Shown: in pieces, positions 13,238 to 58,093 of the stretch
Position numbering within the stretch: the stretch's first letter is position 1
Layout: each line of letters begins with the position of its first letter
NCBI RefSeq assembly: GCF_000147075.1
Contig: NC_014484.1
Location: 637,501-701,500, forward strand
Length of the DNA: 64,000 bases
Source: Spirochaeta thermophila DSM 6192
GTDB lineage: Bacteria > Spirochaetota > Spirochaetia > Winmispirales > Winmispiraceae
Direction of reading: 5' to 3'
Translations under genes and position numbers: made by a program
The notes under the pieces: generated by a model
Seen by the model: only the letters and a program-made list of their open reading frames with translations
What the model was told of the DNA's origin: nothing
Databases searched by the model: none

Positions 13238-15151
13238 TCACTCGAAATAGGTGTATCCGCGCATGCCTTCCTCGAAGGCCTCCATGATGGCCTTTTTCTC
13301 CGGGAGGCCGATCTTCTTCTCCTTGAGGGCCTGTTCCACCTTGCGTTTGAGGCGGTGGAGGATGGCCTTGGGGATGTACTCCACGTAGCTGAGGATGTCC
13401 TCCACGGTGTCGCCCTCCACCTCGTTCACGAAGACGATCTCGCCGTCCTCGTCCAGGGCAACGTTCACTATGTGGGTGTCACCGAAGAGGTTGTGGAGGT
13501 CTCCCAATGTCTCCTGGTAGGCTCCCACGAGGAAGATACCGATGATGTAGTCCTCGTCTTTCAGGGGATGGAGGAGGAGGTAGGGGCGGGTGTCGTAGAT
13601 GTCGATGAAGGTGTCTATCTTTCCGTCCGAGTCACAGGTGGTATCGGCGATGATGGCAGGGATCTCCGGCTGCTCGTTGAGCCTGTGGATGGGGACGATG
13701 GGGAAGAGCTGATCGATGGCCCACGCATCGGGGAGCGACTGGAAGACGCTGAAGTTGCCGTAGTAGATGTGAGCGAGGCTCGCCTCGGCCTCTTCTATCT
13801 CTTCCGGTACATACTTGAGCTGCTTCGCCACTTTCACCAGCTTTTCTATGCCGTTCCAGAAATAGAGCTCGGCCAGACCTCGTTCCCAGAGAGGGATGTC
13901 GCCCATGATGAACTGGGAGCGGATGAGATCGCGGTAGTAGATGATGTCGTGGAAGGCCTCCTGTACGTTCTTCACCGATATGGAATTGTAGATATCGATG
14001 AGTTCCTTGAGCGTGGGCGAGCACTCCTCGGGGACGGAGAGCTGGTCCGGAGCAACGGTGAGACTCGAGGAGTCCAGGACGTTGAACAGGAGGACGCTCG
14101 AATACGCCACCACGAATCGTCCGGATTCGCTCACCAGGGTGGGGTGAGGGATTCCCTCGGGGTCGAGTATTTCCATCACCTCTTCCACCACGTCGGTGGC
14201 GTACTCCTTGAGGGTGTAGTTCCGGCTCGAGTGGAAGTTGGTCTGCGAGCCGTCGTAGTCCACCGCGAGGCCCCCTCCGATATCCAGGTGTCCCATCGTC
14301 GCCCCCTCCTTGTAGAGGGCTGCGTAGTACCTGGCCGCTTCCTTCACCGCGGAGCGGATGTGCCTGATGTCGGGGATCTGCGAGCCGAGGTGGTAGTGGA
14401 GGAGGACGAGGCGGTCGAGCATCCCCTCTTCCTTGAGGATCTTTACCGCGGAGACGACCTGGTGCGAGGTGAGGCCGAAGATGGATTGGTCTCCTGAACT
14501 CTCCGACCACTTGCCCGGGGTGGTCGAGGAGAGTTTCACCCTGATGCCCAGGAACGGAAGGATACCCAGCGCGCGGGAGCGCTCGATGATTGTCCGGATC
14601 TCGGAGAGGCGCTCGATCACCAGCACCACCTTGTGGCCGAGCTTGGTGCCGTAGAGGGCAAGGTCGATGAACTCCCTGTCCTTGTAGCCGTTGCACACGA
14701 GCAGACTCTCCTTGTCGCGGAGGTGGGACAGGGCGATGAAGAGTTCCGCCTTGCTGCCGGCTTCGAGTCCGTAGTGGAAGGGACGACCTATCTCCACTAT
14801 GTCCTCTATGACCTGTTGCTGCTGATTCACCTTTATGGGGAAGACGCCCCGATAAGTTCCCCGATAGCCGCTCTCCTTGATGGCGGAGAGGAAGGCGTTG
14901 TTGAGTTCGTGGATCTTCGCCCTGAGGATGTCCCTGAATCTGAGGAGGACCGGGAACGAGAGCCCGCCCTGTACCACCTTCTGGGCGATCTCGTAGAGGC
15001 TCACCTCCTCTGTCTTCCGCTCGGGGGTGGAGAGCTTCACCGTGACCTCGCCGGATTCGGAGATGCCGAAGAAGTCGCCTCCCCATCTGCTTATCCCGTA
15101 GTATTCGTCAGAGTCCTTTATGGTCCAGGCCTTTATCTCCTTGCGTGCCAT
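13238..15151 (-). CDS. speA: Biosynthetic arginine decarboxylase
   Basis: 637 residues, the size of SpeA. It opens with WTIKDSDEYYGISRWGGDFF, a family hallmark. The PLP-binding Lys region is FPIKVNQQ, and GHLDIGGGLAVDYDG and VVDYDG-like glycine-rich phosphate-binding segments fit fold-type III decarboxylases. It converts arginine to agmatine plus CO2 for polyamine synthesis, relevant to thermophiles. It is divergent from the chromate transporter pair. AAAGGG lies just before ATG 15151. Confidence 0.95.
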   Translation of the reverse strand: MARKEIKAWTIKDSDEYYGISRWGGDFFGISESGEVTVKLSTPERKTEEVSLYEIAQKVVQGGLSFPVLLRFRDILRAKIHELNNAFLSAIKESGYRGTYRGVFPIKVNQQQQVIEDIVEIGRPFHYGLEAGSKAELFIALSHLRDKESLLVCNGYKDREFIDLALYGTKLGHKVVLVIERLSEIRTIIERSRALGILPFLGIRVKLSSTTPGKWSESSGDQSIFGLTSHQVVSAVKILKEEGMLDRLVLLHYHLGSQIPDIRHIRSAVKEAARYYAALYKEGATMGHLDIGGGLAVDYDGSQTNFHSSRNYTLKEYATDVVEEVMEILDPEGIPHPTLVSESGRFVVAYSSVLLFNVLDSSSLTVAPDQLSVPEECSPTLKELIDIYNSISVKNVQEAFHDIIYYRDLIRSQFIMGDIPLWERGLAELYFWNGIEKLVKVAKQLKYVPEEIEEAEASLAHIYYGNFSVFQSLPDAWAIDQLFPIVPIHRLNEQPEIPAIIADTTCDSDGKIDTFIDIYDTRPYLLLHPLKDEDYIIGIFLVGAYQETLGDLHNLFGDTHIVNVALDEDGEIVFVNEVEGDTVEDILSYVEYIPKAILHRLKRKVEQALKEKKIGLPEKKAIMEAFEEGMRGYTYFE

Positions 15152-15170
15152 CCCTTTCTCTTTACCTCTC

Positions 15171-15198
15171 TTGTGGATTCGTAGTCTTTCACTATACT
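15171..15198 (+). promoter_or_regulatory. Candidate promoter of the chromate transporter pair
   Basis: TTGTGG (15171-15176), a 16-bp spacer and TATACT (15193-15198) lie 39 bp before the GTG start. The same stretch read on the minus strand offers TATAGT as a -10 for speA, so the promoters may overlap back to back. Confidence 0.5.
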
Positions 15199-15236
15199 AT
15201 GATTCCGACCATATGTGGAAGAGAGGAGGGCTCAGC

Positions 15237-15800
15237 GTGAATGGTGCCGTGACGGGAAAGGCCCGGCTCTTTCTCACCTTCTTCTCCATAGGGGCGGTCA
15301 CGTTCGGGGGAGGGTACGCGATGATCCCCCTCATCCAGCGAGACCTGTGTGAGCGTAAGCGGTGGCTCGAGGAGAAGGAAATGCTCGATATCCTTGCCGC
15401 AGCCCAGTCGGTCCCGGGGGCGGTGGCGATCAATACCGCCTCGTTGGTGGGGATGCGCCTGGCCGGGGTCGGGGGTGCGCTCGCCGCGATGCTCGGTATG
15501 GTGCTCCCCTCGTTCCTCGTGATCCTGCTGGTGGCGGGCGTGCTCTATCGGTTCGTACATGTGGAGCTGGTGGGACATGCGTTCGCCGGGATGCGGGCGG
15601 TGGTGCTCGGGCTCCTCGCATCCGTGGTGCTCTCGGTGGGAAGGAGCACGGTGAAGGATGCGTGGAGCGGGGTGATCGCGGTGGGCGCGGTGGTGTGTGT
15701 GGTGGTGCTGGGGGTGCACCCGGTACTCGTGCTCCTGGGCGCAGGCGTCCTGGGGCTTCTCGCTTCGTTGTGGCGGACGGGGAGGCGCTCGGATGAGTGA
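15237..15800 (+). CDS. Chromate transporter, N-terminal half subunit
   Basis: 187 residues from GTG 15237, placed by AGAGGAGGG at 15222-15230. A single CHR domain with the hallmark TFGGGYAMIPLI and about five or six hydrophobic segments. In long-chain ChrA two such domains are fused; here they are separate genes overlapping by 8 bp (short-chain type), expected to form a heterodimer. The family exports chromate by chemiosmosis; other anions are possible. Confidence 0.85.
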   Translation: MNGAVTGKARLFLTFFSIGAVTFGGGYAMIPLIQRDLCERKRWLEEKEMLDILAAAQSVPGAVAINTASLVGMRLAGVGGALAAMLGMVLPSFLVILLVAGVLYRFVHVELVGHAFAGMRAVVLGLLASVVLSVGRSTVKDAWSGVIAVGAVVCVVVLGVHPVLVLLGAGVLGLLASLWRTGRRSDE

Positions 15801-16380
15801 GGTGTGGGGGCTTTTCGTCTCGTTTTTCAAGATAGGGGCGTTCGCCTTCGGGGGGGGATACGCCATGATCCCCCTCATCGCCTCCGAGGTGGAGGGGCAC
15901 GGGTGGCTTTCCGCGCGTGTCTTCGCCGACGTGGTGGCGATCGCGGAGATGACGCCGGGGCCGGTGGCGATCAACATGGCGACGTTCGTGGGGTTCAGGG
16001 TGGCGGGGGTGCCGGGTGCCCTGGTGGCCACCGTGGGGGTGGTGCTGCCCTCGTTCCTCCTCGTGCTGGTGGTGGGAAGGTGGCTCGCGCGATGGGAGAA
16101 GGCCCCGCTCAAGGAGGCGGTCTTCTCGGGTCTCAGACCCGCGGTGGTGGGGCTCATCGGGTCGGCTGTGTGGGTGGTAGGCAGGGGGGCTCTCCTCGAC
16201 CATCCGCCCGAGGCGCTGCGGATTCCCCTCGGTCCGGGTGTCGACGGGATCTCGCTGCTCATCGCGGCGGCGGCGTTCCTGGTCTTCAGGACCCTGCGCC
16301 TCCACCCCGTCTGGGTGATCCTCGGGGGAGCGGCGGCGGGTATGTTGGTGGGCTTGATGGTGCCGGGGTGGGGCGGGTGA
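15793..16380 (+). CDS. Chromate transporter, C-terminal half subunit
   Basis: 195 residues, second CHR domain with AFGGGYAMIPLI and the conserved MTPGPVAINMATFVG segment. It starts inside the end of the preceding gene (ATG 15793, previous stop 15798-15800), with GGAGGCG upstream, so the two subunits are translationally coupled, which suits an obligate pair. The C-terminus ends in a hydrophobic glycine-rich helix. No regulator is adjacent. Confidence 0.85.
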   Translation: MSEVWGLFVSFFKIGAFAFGGGYAMIPLIASEVEGHGWLSARVFADVVAIAEMTPGPVAINMATFVGFRVAGVPGALVATVGVVLPSFLLVLVVGRWLARWEKAPLKEAVFSGLRPAVVGLIGSAVWVVGRGALLDHPPEALRIPLGPGVDGISLLIAAAAFLVFRTLRLHPVWVILGGAAAGMLVGLMVPGWGG

Positions 16381-16429
16381 GGGAAGCCGCCTGCGGTGTA
16401 CGACATCGTGTCGGAGTTCGTGGATAATC

Positions 16430-16458
16430 TTGACGGAAACAGTAAAAAAAAGTATGTT
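16430..16458 (+). promoter_or_regulatory. suf operon promoter
   Basis: TTGACG (16430-16435), a 17-bp spacer ending in an A-rich tract and TATGTT (16453-16458). Transcription would begin about 16465, inside the left arm of the adjacent inverted repeat. Confidence 0.7.
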
Positions 16459-16460
16459 AT

Positions 16461-16495
16461 CCTTCAAATAGGATGGAAAAGGTCCTATTTGAAGG
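16461..16495 (+). promoter_or_regulatory. 13-bp-arm inverted repeat covering the rrf2 ribosome-binding site
   Basis: CCTTCAAATAGGA (16461-16473) and TCCTATTTGAAGG (16483-16495) are perfect reverse complements around a 9-base loop. The right arm overlaps the Shine-Dalgarno GAAGGAG (16491-16497) that serves GTG 16503. As DNA it could be a dimeric Rrf2 operator just downstream of the -10. As RNA it would hide the ribosome-binding site, if transcription starts early enough to include the left arm. Confidence 0.75.
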
Positions 16496-16502
16496 AGAGG
16501 CG

Positions 16503-16910
16503 GTGATACGGATTCACAGGGACCTCGAGTATGCATTGATCGCGCTCGCCCATCTCTCCAGGGTCAGAGGGCTCGTCTCGTCTCGAGAGCTCGCCTCTTC
16601 CACCGGGCTCCCCGAGGCGAGGTTGCGGAAGATCCTGCAGCGTCTCGGGAGGGCGGGGGTCCTCAGGGCTGTACAGGGGGTGCACGGCGGCTATGTGCTC
16701 GAGCGTTCCCTCTCTGAGCTCACCATAGGTGAGGTAGCCCGGGCGCTCGACGAGCGGGTGATCCTCCCCTGCGGCAGGGACGGGTGTGAGGTGCCCGAGT
16801 TCTGCGTGATGAGGCCCGGGGTGATCGACCTGGTGTCCCTCCTAGAGCAGCATGTCTACAGCCTGCCCCTCTCCCGTTTCATCGGAGGTGCGTATGAGTT
16901 CGCACGATGA
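16503..16910 (+). CDS. Rrf2-family regulator, probable Fe-S-sensing repressor of the suf operon
   Basis: 135 residues from GTG 16503, chosen for GAAGGAG upstream; an ATG at 16473 lies inside the hairpin. The winged helix spans about 1-75 (IHRDLEYALIALAHLS, HGGYVLERS). Three Cys in the C-terminal half (PCGRDGCEVPEFC, spacing CX4CX5C) match the cluster-binding site of IscR/SufR-type members. Its position as first gene of a suf operon implies autoregulation by Fe-S status. It overlaps sufT by 17 bp. Confidence 0.88.
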   Translation: MIRIHRDLEYALIALAHLSRVRGLVSSRELASSTGLPEARLRKILQRLGRAGVLRAVQGVHGGYVLERSLSELTIGEVARALDERVILPCGRDGCEVPEFCVMRPGVIDLVSLLEQHVYSLPLSRFIGGAYEFAR

Positions 16911-17232
16911 CGCTCGGGGGAAGAAGCCTCCGGTCTCCAGGGAGGTGGTCTACGAGGCCCTCAGCAATGTCTACGATCCTGAGCTGGGGCTCCCCATCAC
17001 CGACCTGGGGATGGTCTACCGGGTGGACGTCTTCCCCGACAGGATCGAACTGGATTTCACGCTCACCTATCCGGGGTGTCCCCTCGGGGAGGTGATAGAG
17101 AAGGCGATCCGTGCAGAGGTGGGAAAGGTGGCCCACACCGACAACCTGGTGGTGAGGCTGGTGTGGGATCCCCCCTGGACGCCCGATTTCATGAGCGAGG
17201 CTGCGCGTTTCAGCCTCGGATATCCGATATAA
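16894..17232 (+). CDS. sufT: SufT-like MIP18/DUF59 Fe-S assembly factor
   Basis: 112 residues from ATG 16894 with GGAGGTG at 16884-16890. DUF59 signatures are EALSNVYDPELGLPITDLGMVY and LTYPGCPLGE, the latter containing the conserved Cys. MIP18/SufT proteins help mature or deliver Fe-S clusters to targets. The gene starts within rrf2 and ends 10 bp before sufC, so it is a fixed member of this operon. Confidence 0.85.
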   Translation: MSSHDDARGKKPPVSREVVYEALSNVYDPELGLPITDLGMVYRVDVFPDRIELDFTLTYPGCPLGEVIEKAIRAEVGKVAHTDNLVVRLVWDPPWTPDFMSEAARFSLGYPI

Positions 17233-17242
17233 GGAGTACTAC

Positions 17243-18019
17243 ATGGCGGAACTTCGCATAGAGGGGCTGCGTGCCGAGATCGAAGGAAAGCCCATCCTCC
17301 AGGGGGTGGATCTGGTCCTGCGCACCGGTGAGGTGCATGCCCTCATGGGGCCCAATGGGTCGGGGAAGAGTACCCTTGCCCACGTGATCATGGGACATCC
17401 GTCCTACACCGTGACCGGGGGGAGGATCCTCCTGGACGGTGAGGACGTCCTGGAACTGCCGCCCGAGGAGCGGGCGGTGCGGGGGTTGTTCCTCGGTTTC
17501 CAGTACCCGGCCGAGGTCTCGGGGCTCACCACGGGCAAGTTCGTGAAGCGGGTGCTCGAGAAGCATCCGGCCCGGAACATGCCGGTGACGCAGATGATCA
17601 AGGAGCTCAAGGAGGCGTTGACGCGGATGGGGCTTTCCCAGGAGTTTATCAACCGCTCCCTCAATGAGGGGTTTTCGGGTGGTGAGAAAAAGCGTATGGA
17701 GATTGTGCAGATGCTCATGCTCCGTCCCCGGTTCGCGATCCTCGACGAGATCGACTCGGGGCTCGACATCGATGCATTGAAGGACGTGGCCGAGGGGATC
17801 AACTCGCTCAGAGGACCTGAGTTCTGCGCCTTCGTGATCACACACTACCAGCGGATACTGGAACACGTGCATCCCGATTTCGTGCACATCATGTATCGCG
17901 GCAGGATCCTCACCTCCGGAGGGAGGGATCTGGTCGAGACGCTCGAGGCGAAGGGGTACGAGTGGTTGCGAAAGGAGTTCGGCATAGAGGAGGACGAACA
18001 TGAGTACGTCCACAATTGA
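17243..18019 (+). CDS. sufC: Fe-S assembly ATPase SufC
   Basis: 258 residues. It is an ABC-type ATPase with Walker [10 protein letters not shown], the SufC-specific [11 protein letters not shown] signature and Walker [18 protein letters not shown]. SufC forms the SufBC2D scaffold and drives its conformational change during cluster assembly. It overlaps sufB by 20 bp. Confidence 0.96.
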
Positions 18020-19397
18020 TTTCGGTGAGTACAAGTACGGCTTCTCCGACGTGGTGAAGCCGGTGGTCCAGGAGGAGAAGGGGCTCTCCGAGGAGGTGGT
18101 GAAGAGGATCTCCTACTACAAGGAGGAGCCCGACTGGATGCGGGAGTTCAGGCTCAGGGCCTACCGGATATTCAAGTCGAAGCCCATGCCGACGTGGGGC
18201 GTGGATCTCTCAGCCCTTAATTTTGACGATATCTACTATTATGTTAGACCCACCGATAGGGCAGGCCGGTCGTGGGATGAGGTGCCCGAGACCATCAAGC
18301 GGACGTTCGACCGTTTGGGGATCCCCGAGGCGGAGAGGAAGTACCTGGCCGGGGTAGGGGCGCAGTACGATTCCGAGATGGTGTATCACAGTATCAAGGA
18401 GGAGCTCGCCTCCAAGGGGGTGATCTTCTGTGATCCCGAGACGGCGGTGAGGGAGTATCCGGATCTGATGCGGAAGTACTTCGGGACCGTGGTCCCGCCG
18501 GGCGACAATACGTTCGCGGCCCTCAATTCGGCGGTGTGGTCGGGCGGGAGTTTCGTCTACGTGCCGAAGGGGGTGCATGTGGATATCCCGCTCCAGGCGT
18601 ACTTCAGGATCAACACCCAGAACATGGGGCAGTTCGAGCGTACGCTCATCATCGCCGACGAGGGGAGTTTCGTGCACTACATAGAGGGGTGTACGGCCCC
18701 GGTCTACACCACGGCCTCGCTCCACGCCGCGGTGGTGGAGATCATCGCGCTTCCGGGTGCACGGGTGCGCTACTCCACGATCCAGAACTGGTCGGGGGAT
18801 GTGTACAACCTGGTGACCAAGCGGGCGGTGGCCTACGAGCACGCCACGGTGGAGTGGGTCGACGGGAATATCGGGAGTCGGAAGACCATGAAGTATCCTT
18901 CGGTGTACCTCATGGGGCCGTACGCCCACGGCGAGGTGCTCTCGATCGCGTTCGCCGGCAAGGGGCAGGAGCAGGACACGGGGGCGAAGATGATCCACGC
19001 GGCCTCGCACACGTCCTCGGTGATCACCTCCAAGTCCATAAGCAAGGACGGCGGGATCGCTACGTACCGCGGTCTGGTGAGGGTGGAGGAGGGGGTGAGG
19101 GGTGCCCGCTCACACGTGGTGTGCGATGCCCTCATCATGGACCCGCAGTCGGTTTCCAGGACGTTCCCGTACATGGAGATCAAGTCGCCCCATGTGCACA
19201 TGGAACACGAGGCGAAGGTGAGCAGGGTGAGCGAGCAGCAGCTCTTCTACCTCATGTCGAGGGGATTCTCGGAGGATGAGGCGGCGGCTATGATTGTGAA
19301 CGGGTTCATCGATCCGCTCGTGAAGCAGCTCCCCATGGAGTACGCGGTGGAGCTGAACAGGCTCATCGAGCTCGAAATGGAGGGTTCCGTTGGTTAA
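18000..19397 (+). CDS. sufB: Fe-S assembly scaffold SufB
   Basis: 465 residues, standard SufB length. Family segments include [29 protein letters not shown] with the Cys near the persulfide path, and [15 protein letters not shown] plus [17 protein letters not shown]. SufB is the cluster-bearing scaffold subunit and receives sulfur from SufS/SufU. GGAGG precedes ATG 18000 within the sufC coding region. The stop overlaps the TTG start of sufD. Confidence 0.96.
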
Positions 19398-20511
19398 GGA
19401 GTATACGTCGTTGCAGGATATTGCCCGAGTGGCGAGGGAAAAGGCTTCGGGGATGGGGCTTCCGGCCCGGAGCGAGGAGGAGTGGCGGAGGACCGATGTG
19501 ACGGTGCTCGACTGGGAGCGCAGGTCCAATGCCGGGGTGAGGGTGCTGGTGGAAGGCGACGAGGCCGGTGCGGGAGAGTCCCCGGCGGTGCTCGCGATGC
19601 TGGAGCGGCTTTCCGGGAGGCTGGACAACGTGTTCCTCGCACGGGCGCTCGGGAGTGAGGAGGTGGTGTGGGTGAGGACGGGTGGGGGGGAGCGGGTAGT
19701 GCGGATACGGCAGGGGGAGCGTGTGCGATCGGATGTGCACGTGCTGGTGGAGGCGCGGCCGGGTGATCAGGGGGTGGTCCGGCTGGTGCATGAGGGGGGG
19801 CGTGGAAGTGTGCTGAACGTGCTGGTGAGTGTATGGGTGGGTGAAGGGGCGAGGGTGGTGCTGGTGGACGAGGGGGCGCGGCGCGCGGATGCGGCGCGCG
19901 TGGTGCACGTGTGGGGTGAGGTGGAGCGGGGCGCCGTGCTGGAACACGCGAGCCTGGTGACGGGGTCGTGGTTCACCAAGCAGCGGGTCCACGTGCGACT
20001 CGCGGGGGAGGGGGCGGAGGCCTTCCTGCGGGGGGTGATGGTGGCCGGAAGGGGCGACCACTACGATGCACGCACGGTCCAGGAGCACGTGGGTCCGCAG
20101 ACGAGGAGCCTCGCCCAGTACCACGCGGTGGCGGGAGAGGACGGCCGCACGGTGTACCAGGGCCTCATCGAGGTGGCAGGCTCGGCCCGCGGCACCGATG
20201 CCTATCTCTCGAACAAGAACCTCCTCCTCTCCGAGGAGGCCGCCTCCTACTCCATCCCCACGCTGAGTATCGGGACCGATGATGTGCGGTGCAGCCACGG
20301 CTCCACCACGGGCCATGTGCGGGAGGAAGAGCTCTTCTACCTGAGGTCGCGGGGAATCCCCGAGGAGGAGGCGGTGGGCCTCCTGGCTGCGGCTCACATC
20401 AGGGCGGTGACCGATCATCTCCCCTCCTCCCTCGCCGAGAGAGTGGCACGTCGTGCCGAACGGAAGGTGAAGCGGATGAAAGGGGTTGCGCTCCGTGGCG
20501 AAGTGGCATAG
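19390..20511 (+). CDS. sufD: Fe-S assembly protein SufD
   Basis: 373 residues from TTG 19390 (GGAGGG six bases upstream, inside sufB). The C-terminal beta-helix is well conserved ([52 protein letters not shown]). The middle (about residues 90-190) is Gly/Val/Arg-rich and much less conserved. SufD completes the SufBC2D complex and is linked to iron entry. It overlaps the next gene by 17 bp. Confidence 0.9.
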
Positions 20512-20797
20512 GACCGTACCCGTGGACTCGTTCCAGCGCGCTGCGAGCGTCCAGTGCGGGAAGAGGCGGATCGCCCTCTTCAAACTGGAGGACGGTGTCT
20601 ACGCCATAGACGATGTGTGTTCCCACGAGTTCAGCCTCCTCTCCGAGGGGGAGGTGTGGGAGGGTGAGGTCTACTGTGTCAAACACGGCTCGCGGTTCGA
20701 TATCAGGACAGGGAAGGTGCTGAGCCTCCCCGCGACCAAGGATGTACGTACCTACGAAGTGAAGGTGGAGGATGGATACGTCTATGTCCGTTGCTAG
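20495..20797 (+). CDS. Rieske-type [2Fe-2S] ferredoxin within the suf operon
   Basis: 100 residues from GTG 20495. Both Rieske ligand boxes are intact: CSH (C-X-H) in DDVCSHEFSLL and CVKH (C-X2-H) in YCVKHGSRFD, about 20 residues apart. It is a soluble ferredoxin of the biphenyl-dioxygenase type. It sits between sufD and sufS, overlapping both, so its expression is locked to Fe-S assembly. It may supply electrons for cluster formation or persulfide reduction; this role is inferred from position only. Confidence 0.85.
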   Translation: MAKWHRTVPVDSFQRAASVQCGKRRIALFKLEDGVYAIDDVCSHEFSLLSEGEVWEGEVYCVKHGSRFDIRTGKVLSLPATKDVRTYEVKVEDGYVYVRC

Positions 20798-22025
20798 AGG
20801 GTACCACGTGGAAGCGCTCAGGGCCGAGTTTCCCATACTCTCCCGGCGGATGGGAGGGCGGCCCCTCGTGTATCTGGACAACGCCGCCACCACGCAGCGA
20901 CCTTCCAGGGTGATCGAGGCGATGCGCTCCTATGCCAGGGAGCACCACGCGAACGTACATCGGGGGCTCCACACCCTCTCGGTGGAGGCTACGTCGCTCT
21001 ATGAAGAGGCGCGCCGGGAGGTGGCCCGGTTCATCGGAGCGGGGAGCGAACGGGAGATCGTCTTCACCCGGAACGCCACCGAGGCCATCAACCTGGTGGC
21101 CCACACGTGGGCCGAGGCCTTTCTCGAGCCGGGGGACGTGGTAGTGCTCTCCGAGATGGAGCACCACAGCAACCTCATCCCCTGGCAGCTCCTCGCCCGC
21201 CGGAAGGGTGTACAGCTCGCCTTCCTTCCCTTTGACGAGAACGGTATGCTCGACCTCGCCTCCCTCGACGAACTCTGGACAGAACGGGTGAAACTCGTCT
21301 CGCTCGTGCATGTCTCCAACGTCTTCGGCACCGTGAACCCGGTGGAAGAGATCGTCGAGTACGCCCATCGACGGGGTGCCCTGGTCCTCCTCGACGGGGC
21401 CCAGGCCGTCCCCCACCTTCCGATCTCCATAGAAGCCCTCGGCTGCGACTTCCTCGCCTTCTCCGGGCACAAGATGTACGGCCCCATGGGGATAGGGGTG
21501 CTCTATGCGCGAGAGGAACTCCTCGAGGCGATGCCCCCCTTCCTCGGGGGGGGTGAGATGATACGCTCGGTGACCCTGGAGACAGCCACATGGAACGAGG
21601 TGCCTCACAAGTTCGAGGCGGGTACACCCAACGTGGAAGGGGCCGTGGGCCTCGCTGAGGCGGTGCGATTCCTCCGGGAGGTGGGGATGGAGGCGGTGGC
21701 GGCGCACGAGCGGGAACTCACCGCCTATGCCCTGGAGGCCTTGAAGCAGGTACCTGACATCACCCTCTACGGCCCTGGGATCCCCCACCAGGCCGGGATC
21801 GTCTCGTTCACGCTCAAGGATGTGCACCCGCACGACATCGCACAGCTCCTCGACAGGGAAGGGGTGGCGGTCCGGGCGGGACACCACTGCGCCCAGCCCG
21901 CGATGCGCAAGCTCGGCGTACCGGCCACAGCGAGGGCGAGTTTCGGCCTCTACACCACGAAGGAGGAGATCGATATACTGGTCTCGTCCCTCATCAAGGT
22001 GCAGGAGTTCTTTCGCCATGCATGA
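20772..22025 (+). CDS. sufS: Cysteine desulfurase SufS
   Basis: 417 residues from ATG 20772. GGAGG directly abuts this ATG, so ATG 20784 or GTG 20808 (with GAGGG upstream, giving 405 residues) may be the true start. The PLP Lys is in SGHKMYGPMG (about K233) and the active-site Cys in RAGHHCAQPAM (about C373), the class II arrangement that works with SufU. It mobilises sulfur from cysteine as a persulfide. It overlaps sufU by 8 bp. Confidence 0.95.
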   Translation: MDTSMSVARGYHVEALRAEFPILSRRMGGRPLVYLDNAATTQRPSRVIEAMRSYAREHHANVHRGLHTLSVEATSLYEEARREVARFIGAGSEREIVFTRNATEAINLVAHTWAEAFLEPGDVVVLSEMEHHSNLIPWQLLARRKGVQLAFLPFDENGMLDLASLDELWTERVKLVSLVHVSNVFGTVNPVEEIVEYAHRRGALVLLDGAQAVPHLPISIEALGCDFLAFSGHKMYGPMGIGVLYAREELLEAMPPFLGGGEMIRSVTLETATWNEVPHKFEAGTPNVEGAVGLAEAVRFLREVGMEAVAAHERELTAYALEALKQVPDITLYGPGIPHQAGIVSFTLKDVHPHDIAQLLDREGVAVRAGHHCAQPAMRKLGVPATARASFGLYTTKEEIDILVSSLIKVQEFFRHA

Positions 22026-22458
22026 TGAGCTCTACCAGGAGATCCTGCTTGACCACTATCGGCATCCCCGGAACAAGAGGCCGCTTCCCCACATACCTGA
22101 GTCCCGCGCCCACGAGAATCCCACGTGCGGGGATTCGGTGAAGCTGGAGGTGAAGCTCCATGACGGAGTGATCGAAGAGGTGGCCTTCGACGGGAAGGGA
22201 TGCGCCATCGACACGGCATCGGCTTCCATCATGACCGAGCTGTTGAAGGGAAAGACTGTGGAGGAGGCCCTCGCCCTGGCGGAGAAGGTGATCCGCATGA
22301 TCCGGGGGGAGGATCCCACCCCCTTCGAGGAGTTCGGTGACCTGGTGGTATTCTCGGGGCTTTCCGCCTATCCCGTGAGAGTCAAGTGCGCCACGCTCCC
22401 CTGGCACGCCCTCCTCGACGAAATCTCTAAACTCCGGAGCGATATCCCCTCCCGCTGA
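22018..22458 (+). CDS. sufU: Zinc-dependent sulfurtransferase SufU
   Basis: 146 residues. The Zn/persulfide ligands of SufU are visible: Cys and Asp in NPTCGDSV, Cys in GKGCAIDTAS and Cys in VKCATLPWHAL. SufU takes persulfide from SufS and passes it to SufB. The ATG at 22018 overlaps the sufS stop. Its 3' end overlaps the convergent sigma-like gene by about 90 bp. Confidence 0.95.
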   Translation: MHDELYQEILLDHYRHPRNKRPLPHIPESRAHENPTCGDSVKLEVKLHDGVIEEVAFDGKGCAIDTASASIMTELLKGKTVEEALALAEKVIRMIRGEDPTPFEEFGDLVVFSGLSAYPVRVKCATLPWHALLDEISKLRSDIPSR

Positions 22459-53201: not shown

Positions 53202-53219
53202 GTGTAACATGTGTTACAC
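53202..53219. promoter_or_regulatory. CRP/FNR-type palindrome upstream of the cupin operon
   Basis: GTGTAACA-TG-TGTTACAC is a perfect 8-bp-arm palindrome of the 16-18-bp CRP/FNR size. A -10 TATCAT lies at 53271-53276; with start of transcription near 53283 the centre is about 72 bp upstream, a class I activator position. Confidence 0.65.
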
Positions 53220-53307
53220 CTAAATCCGACTTTTTTTGTCGTAATTGTGGACTCCTCCCCCGCCCCGAGGTATCATAGAGGTAGCCTTAAGATGAGGAGG
53301 ACCAGAG

Positions 53308-56977: not shown

Positions 56978-58093
56978 ATGACGAAGTGGCATCCTGAGGA
57001 GATCGCGGAAAAGCTGGGACGGGTGAGAGCCCTCATGGAGGAAAAGGGGCTTGACGCCGTCTACCTCAAACGGCAGACGAACTTCTCCTGGATCACAGGG
57101 GGAGGTCGGAATGTGGTGGGGATCACCCTCGAACTCGGCGTGGCGGGAATCCTCGTGACTCCTACCCGGTGTCATGCGGTGTGCAACAACATCGAGTCCC
57201 CCCGGATGAGAGAGGAGGAGCGACTCGAGGAAAAGGGATTCGAGGTCCACGACTTCCTCTGGTACGAAGACAGGGAGGTCGAGATCGTGCGGAAACTCGC
57301 TGGAGGGGGAAGACTGGGTGCCGATCATCCCTTCCCCGGTGCACAGGACATCTCGGCCGAGGTGAAGCGGCTCAGATATGCCCTCACCCCCTGGGAAGTG
57401 GAGCGCTACAGGGAGGTGGGCTACCTCACCTCCCTCGCGATCGAGGAGACCGCGAGGGAGGTGCGTCCGGGCGACAAGGAGTGCGCCATCGTGGGTAGGC
57501 TCGCCCACAAGCTGTGGGCACACGGGCTCGACTATGTGACCATCTTCGTGGCCGCCGACGAGAGGATCAGCGCCTACCGACACCCCATCTCCACCGAGAA
57601 AGAGGTGAAGAGGCGGGCCATGCTCTGTGTGAATGCGAGGAAGTACGGGCTCGTGGTCTCGCTCACCAGGTTCGTGAACTTCGGACCCATTCCTGAGGAC
57701 TGGTACCGCCAGTACTTGGACAACGTGAGGATTGACTGCACGTTCATGGCCGCCACCCGTCCGGGGGTCCCGGTGGTCGAGGCCTTCACAAAGGGGATCG
57801 AGGCCTACAAGGCCCTTGGGTATCCGGAGGAGTACAAGCTCCACCACCAGGGAGGAGCCATCGGCTATGAGGGAAGGGACTACAAGGTCACCTTCACCAC
57901 CCAGGAAGTGGTGCAGACGAATCAGGCCTTCACCTGGAACCCTTCCATCACTGGGACCAAGAGCGAGGATACCATGTTGGCCACCCCCGATGGGCCGCAG
58001 CTTCTCAGCAAACCGATACTGTTTCCCTCCATCTCTCTGGAGGTGGATGGGATACGATTTGAGCGGCCGGGTGTACTGGAGATGCCCGGCTGA
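56978..58093 (+). CDS. M24 (pita-bread fold) protein with missing metal ligands
   Basis: 371 residues: an N-terminal creatinase-like domain (about 1-135) and a C-terminal pita-bread domain. In metallopeptidases five ligands D, D, H, E, E bind two metals. Here the Asp positions read LCVNARKYG and VSLTRF, so both Asp are lost. The His is kept in HHQGGAIGYEG, the first Glu site reads TWNPSI, and the last Glu is kept in SEDTML. The metal centre is thus probably absent, as in creatinase-like members. Likely a hydrolase or lyase acting on the imported solute rather than a peptidase. Confidence 0.78.
   Translation: MTKWHPEEIAEKLGRVRALMEEKGLDAVYLKRQTNFSWITGGGRNVVGITLELGVAGILVTPTRCHAVCNNIESPRMREEERLEEKGFEVHDFLWYEDREVEIVRKLAGGGRLGADHPFPGAQDISAEVKRLRYALTPWEVERYREVGYLTSLAIEETAREVRPGDKECAIVGRLAHKLWAHGLDYVTIFVAADERISAYRHPISTEKEVKRRAMLCVNARKYGLVVSLTRFVNFGPIPEDWYRQYLDNVRIDCTFMAATRPGVPVVEAFTKGIEAYKALGYPEEYKLHHQGGAIGYEGRDYKVTFTTQEVVQTNQAFTWNPSITGTKSEDTMLATPDGPQLLSKPILFPSISLEVDGIRFERPGVLEMPG

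Follow-up and report, generated by a model that had tools for sequence, protein, structure and literature searches.

The type 1 operator found at iscR in E. coli, where an Fe–S operon is headed by the gene of its own Rrf2 regulator and is autorepressed, has the consensus ATASYYGACTRWWWYAGTCRRSTAT. In M. xanthus, RisR, a member of the IS6 group, has been described as an Fe–S Rrf2 repressor whose activity requires its cluster ligands, and footprints of holo-RisR at both suf and isc have been mapped to GAC-N7-GTC flanked by AT-rich DNA (PMC9973013). The Streptomyces NsrR protein (ScNsrR) recognizes a 23-bp site built around a 7-bp central region (PMC9338935).

A stretch of 64,000 nucleotides from Spirochaeta thermophila DSM 6192 (hereafter the window) contains an rrf2-suf operon preceded by an inverted repeat (Table 1). 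This operon had been described in an earlier note as consisting of eight genes, and domain and family matches bear out the order rrf2, sufT-like, sufC, sufB, sufD, Rieske, sufS and sufU. As the same note had claimed, the repeat is located between the -10 hexamer (TATGTT, 16453-16458) and the GTG of rrf2 (16503-16505), and its right arm includes part of the Shine-Dalgarno sequence, namely AAGGA of AAGGAG (16492-16497). The repeat is indeed perfect, with arms of 14 bp rather than the 13 bp first given and a 9-nt spacer (TCCTTCAAATAGGA at 16460-16473 and TCCTATTTGAAGGA at 16483-16496). The window has five perfect repeats (arms of at least 11 bp, loop of 3-30), of which none is as long as this one, the other four being shorter, while 20 first-order Markov shuffles of the window gave a mean of 0.45 repeats with arms of at least 11 bp and a maximum of 13 bp. 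The promoter repeat is present as a single copy in the 2,472,645-bp genome, in a promoter stretch with a G+C content of 38% vs 62% for the window. A further long perfect inverted repeat, with 13-bp arms and an 11-nt loop, is found at window positions 57427-57463. Upstream of the suf promoter, at 15120-16380, are two same-strand ORFs, the second being a chromate-transporter gene (PF02417); there is no terminator-like site between this ORF and suf, nor elsewhere within 16000-17000.

Table 1. Features of the rrf2-suf promoter and operon (window positions)
Feature	Position	Strand	Basis or remark
Predicted -35 hexamer TTGACG	16430..16435	+	Consensus scan; TTGAC-type -35 and 17-18-bp spacer recur at orthologous loci
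Predicted -10 hexamer TATGTT	16453..16458	+	Consensus scan and orthologous loci
Predicted transcription start, about 6-9 nt past the -10	16464..16467	+	Inferred from the -10 position
Left arm of 14-bp repeat	16460..16473	.	Outer six, TCCTTC, a genus-specific extension
Putative 25-bp palindromic Rrf2 operator core AAATAGGAtggaaaaggTCCTATTT, 9-7-9 frame	16466..16490	.	17/18 consensus positions; orthologous promoters and other phyla
Right arm of 14-bp repeat	16483..16496	.	Outer six, GAAGGA, hold most of the Shine-Dalgarno
Shine-Dalgarno AAGGAG of rrf2	16492..16497	+	Sequence; directly outside the operator core
rrf2, Fe–S-type Rrf2 regulator, GTG start	16503..16910	+	Pfam Rrf2, E 7e-22; C90/C95/C101 and E9
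sufT-like (FeS_assembly_P)	16894..17232	+	Domain match
sufC	17243..18019	+	TIGR01978 above cut-off
sufB	18000..19397	+	TIGR01980 above cut-off
sufD	19390..20511	+	PF01458
Rieske-type ferredoxin	20486..20797	+	PF00355
sufS	20772..22025	+	TIGR01979 above cut-off
sufU	22018..22458	+	TIGR01994 above cut-off

The core of the repeat, at 16466-16490, reads AAATAGGATGGAAAAGGTCCTATTT and shares with the IscR type 1 operator its 25-bp dyad and its register, with GA(C) at positions 7-9 and (G)TC at 17-19. The outer bases differ, being AAATA/TATTT here vs ATA/TAT in the E. coli site, and the protein falls far under the IscR equivalog cut-off (TIGR02010, 37.2 bits vs 207.55). As at suf or isc operators of the RisR/IscR kind, the Rrf2 protein is encoded alongside Fe–S assembly genes and its gene heads the operon, so that autorepression, established for IscR, would be expected here by analogy. 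With RisR, the locus has in common an Rrf2 regulator of Fe–S assembly genes with three Cys, a GAC-N7-GTC palindrome with AT-rich flanks at the promoter and, presumably, the repression of suf known for RisR. Unlike the M. xanthus suf site, which overlaps the -35 and -10, the site in the window is downstream of the -10; it is also longer and more symmetric (AAATA/TATTT arms), and its left half is GAT. This likeness is one of operator, genes and Cys. In the alignment of Rrf2 orthologs, C90, C95, C101 and E9 are near-invariant, the three Cys being putative cluster ligands. NsrR and RsrR (structures 6hsd/6y45 for RsrR) share the Rrf2 fold and rank by sequence with the top-scoring relatives of solved structure, and the NsrR site also has a 7-bp centre; unlike the regulators of Fe–S assembly, they respond to NO or to redox state, and their target genes are different.

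Conservation of the site was assessed across the class by collecting Rrf2 orthologs with a protein search followed by a profile search, and by comparing, for the 30 best of them, the DNA upstream of the gene. At the orthologous rrf2-suf promoters, the consensus AAATASGAC-N7-GTCSTATTT recurs with a constant length of 25 bp, and the copy in the window agrees with it at 17 of 18 positions. It has GAT-N7-GTC where most relatives have GAC-N7-GTC, so that a ~23-25-bp dyad of the GAC-N7-GTC type, in a GAT variant, is present next to the -10. Scores of 14-18 out of 18 consensus positions were obtained for 25 of the 30 best orthologs, whereas all 19 spirochaete Rrf2 paralogs scored lower (10-13). The five remaining orthologs, at 11-13, are within the paralog range: one has a doubtful site (G014), and the others are four genomes of a single family (f26), in three of which a variant of the dyad is clear (TAATACTAC..GTAGTATTA or near it), the fourth (G137) being the weakest. 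The sister species, about 97-98% identical in neighbouring genes, is too alike to inform on conservation.

The position of the site relative to the promoter also varies little. In 24 of the 30 loci, by automatic choice, the last base of the -10 falls somewhere from 3 bp ahead of the operator to 1 bp inside it, while operator and start codon are separated by anything from -2 to 56 nt. On sequence grounds, this fixed operator length combined with a steady distance to the -10 is what would be expected of a DNA operator placed relative to its promoter. In the genus of the window the operator follows the -10 at 7 bp, which is 7 bp further downstream than the class norm, and for the sister genus (G002) the figure is 6 bp, given TTGACT-17-TAATTT as promoter, a by-eye reading where the automatic choice gave another; the corresponding promoter in the window is TTGACG-17-TATGTT, with a 17-bp spacer. 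At the other extreme, in six spirochaete loci (G151, G187, G286, G271, G235 and G147), the operator is 0-2 nt from the start codon or overlaps it, without room for a Shine-Dalgarno. In five spirochaete stretches (L050, L059, L060, L061 and L063), the leader is wholly occupied by the operator up to the ATG, which suggests from sequence that their rrf2 mRNAs are leaderless or nearly so.

The symmetry of the dyad is itself maintained. Its nine pairs are formed in 88.1% of cells vs 33-52% after sliding one arm, and changes on both sides were counted in 25 cells vs 9.7 in shuffles, a difference whose significance the shuffles overstate, the 29 sequences used being related to one another. Such compensatory changes had been put forward in the earlier note as a check on the repeat. 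Double changes do occur, at pairs 1/25, 2/24, 6/20 and 7/19, but an RNA stem as their cause was rejected since in most loci transcription is predicted to start downstream of positions 1-6; because these 5' members would be untranscribed there, the double changes are read as symmetry of a DNA dyad.

The association also extends beyond spirochaetes. An exact-consensus scan of public genomes returned at least 115 stretches. Among the matches listed, 20 directly precede an Rrf2 gene, by no more than about 360 bp, and 18 of these 20 have suf genes beside it; for the other two (L128 and L176), no suf genes were seen in the DNA examined around Rrf2. Three of the 20 (L117, L149 and L171) match spirochaete loci of the ortholog set (G271, G235 and G069, respectively), and 17 are additional. 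Taxa in this set comprise Spirochaetales, the FCB group, Neomarinimicrobiota, Calditrichota, Bdellovibrionales, Ignavibacteriales, Bacteroidetes, an alphaproteobacterium, a sphingomonad, Deltaproteobacteria, Sandaracinaceae, Myxococcales and Acidobacteria. Most of the scan matches, those without a close Rrf2 gene, may be due to chance. In a quick tree of sampled operator-bearing Rrf2s and sampled paralogs, the operator-bearing proteins from several phyla form one group that excludes the paralogs (support 0.80). Two tandem operator-like dyads precede the Rrf2 gene in a Calditrichota stretch (L172, from 6424) and a Myxococcales stretch (L128, from 6043).

The site, its 25-bp length and its promoter position are conserved, and it is associated with rrf2-suf loci in several phyla. 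Since the same dyad is found at suf promoters in many bacteria, the repeat is read as a landing site for Rrf2, and it is very probably the DNA operator through which the operon's own Rrf2 represses suf autogenously. The possibility of a DNA operator for Rrf2, raised in the earlier note, therefore gains strong support from conservation across genomes, at orthologous promoters and in other phyla. By analogy with RisR and IscR, from which we infer protein binding, the holo form as the binder and the direction of control, an Rrf2 dimer, probably Fe–S-loaded, would occupy the 25-bp dyad at 16466-16490. With a start placed from the -10, the bound dyad would begin at about +1/+2 and cover about +2 to +26, and Rrf2 would block RNA polymerase at the -10/start region, repressing rrf2-suf; when Fe–S clusters or iron are short, the apo form would release the dyad and the operon would be expressed. 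The window would then hold a well-conserved case of an already known type of switch rather than a novel RNA lock. The 25-bp consensus, now available for suf-linked Rrf2 regulators in spirochaetes and several other phyla, extends the studied RisR case and enables regulon prediction in these groups.

Translational control had been the other proposal for the repeat, and in its pure form, where an mRNA hairpin sequesters the Shine-Dalgarno of rrf2 to control how the operon is translated, with no DNA operator involved, it is extremely improbable. An RNA folded from 16436 does pair the Shine-Dalgarno within the 14-bp stem, and the outer six pairs are hardly explained by chance, as permuting the non-redundant set 5000 times gave no run of six (with all 30 loci, runs of six appeared in 9%, because two sister species match each other). 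In an RNA starting at the predicted 16465-16466, however, the stem closes short of the Shine-Dalgarno, which the outer pairs TCCTTC/GAAGGA could mask only in transcripts starting at or before about 16460. In relatives, the Shine-Dalgarno-containing stem is not conserved: the outer pairs vary, transcription is mostly predicted to start downstream of the left arm, whose symmetry is nonetheless kept, and the six spirochaete loci with the operator at or over the start codon have no Shine-Dalgarno to mask. This promoter geometry and the loci devoid of a Shine-Dalgarno speak against the hairpin as a conserved function, and a DNA operator is the better explanation for what seemed to mask the Shine-Dalgarno. 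In one of the six loci (G235), a second 6-pair extension spans the -10 and the start codon, which would be impossible in the main RNA. No Rfam family was matched. The earlier note had further proposed that opening this one site would control all eight genes through overlaps; six of seven junctions do overlap, but sufT and sufC are separated by a 10-bp gap. Several internal genes have Shine-Dalgarnos of their own and sufC starts 10 bp past sufT; therefore, translational control of all eight genes from the rrf2 ribosome-binding site is unlikely, while an operator would give control of all eight via the promoter. In the shorter RNAs (start at 16465-16466), the Shine-Dalgarno region 16494-16500 is predicted to pair with CUCUCC at 16554-16559 in the rrf2 coding region.

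A combination, in which an Rrf2 operator is accompanied in this genus only by an RNA stem that adjoins or covers the Shine-Dalgarno and lowers translation, for example that of read-through RNA coming from the chromate-transporter genes, is unlikely. It would be consistent with an operator predicted to start from about +1 in the window's family, and hence to be transcribed, with the outer pairs TCCTTC/GAAGGA, with the lack of a terminator-like site in 16000-17000 and with the full stem folded by an upstream-started RNA; but the sole close genome is about 97-98% identical at the locus, leaving no room for covariation, and in the sister genus the outer pairs amount to two Watson-Crick and two G-T pairs only. 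Quite unlikely is the more specific history in which the operator slid 6-7 bp into the leader in the family and gained six pairs in the genus, making it an Rrf2 operator and also an RNA silencer of rrf2 translation from read-through or upstream-initiated transcripts. In this genus, the six-pair extension may have arisen by chance, serve as a DNA feature or insulate against read-through. Recognition by another regulator, or by Rrf2 of a longer DNA site past 25 bp, would account for 6-bp outer dyad extensions in two lineages and for an extra T/A-type flanking pair just beyond the 25 bp, formed in about 65% of non-redundant loci. It is very unlikely, as the site accompanies the Rrf2 subfamily of the operator-bearing loci across phyla and, past this first flanking pair, loci do not generally share the extension.

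Regarding a wider regulon, the genome contains a single exact site, and with up to three mismatches nine sites were found vs 10 for a reversed-pattern control. A weak Rrf2-like site with three mismatches (L039 1501-1525; G000:C1:2102717-2102741) lies in front of a gene that resembles a thiamine-binding/ABC-transport operon. In the window, a candidate second Rrf2-type site, AAATCCGACTTTTTTTGTCGTAATT (53222-53246), which may be due to chance, has two mismatches to the suf consensus and an intact GAC-N7-GTC. It is immediately preceded by an FNR/HcpR-like palindrome, GTGTAACATGTGTTACAC (53202-53219), and followed by a cupin-like ORF and a long ORF resembling a DUF438/hemerythrin protein; at the matching position in the sister genome, GCGAC-N7-GTCGT is retained.
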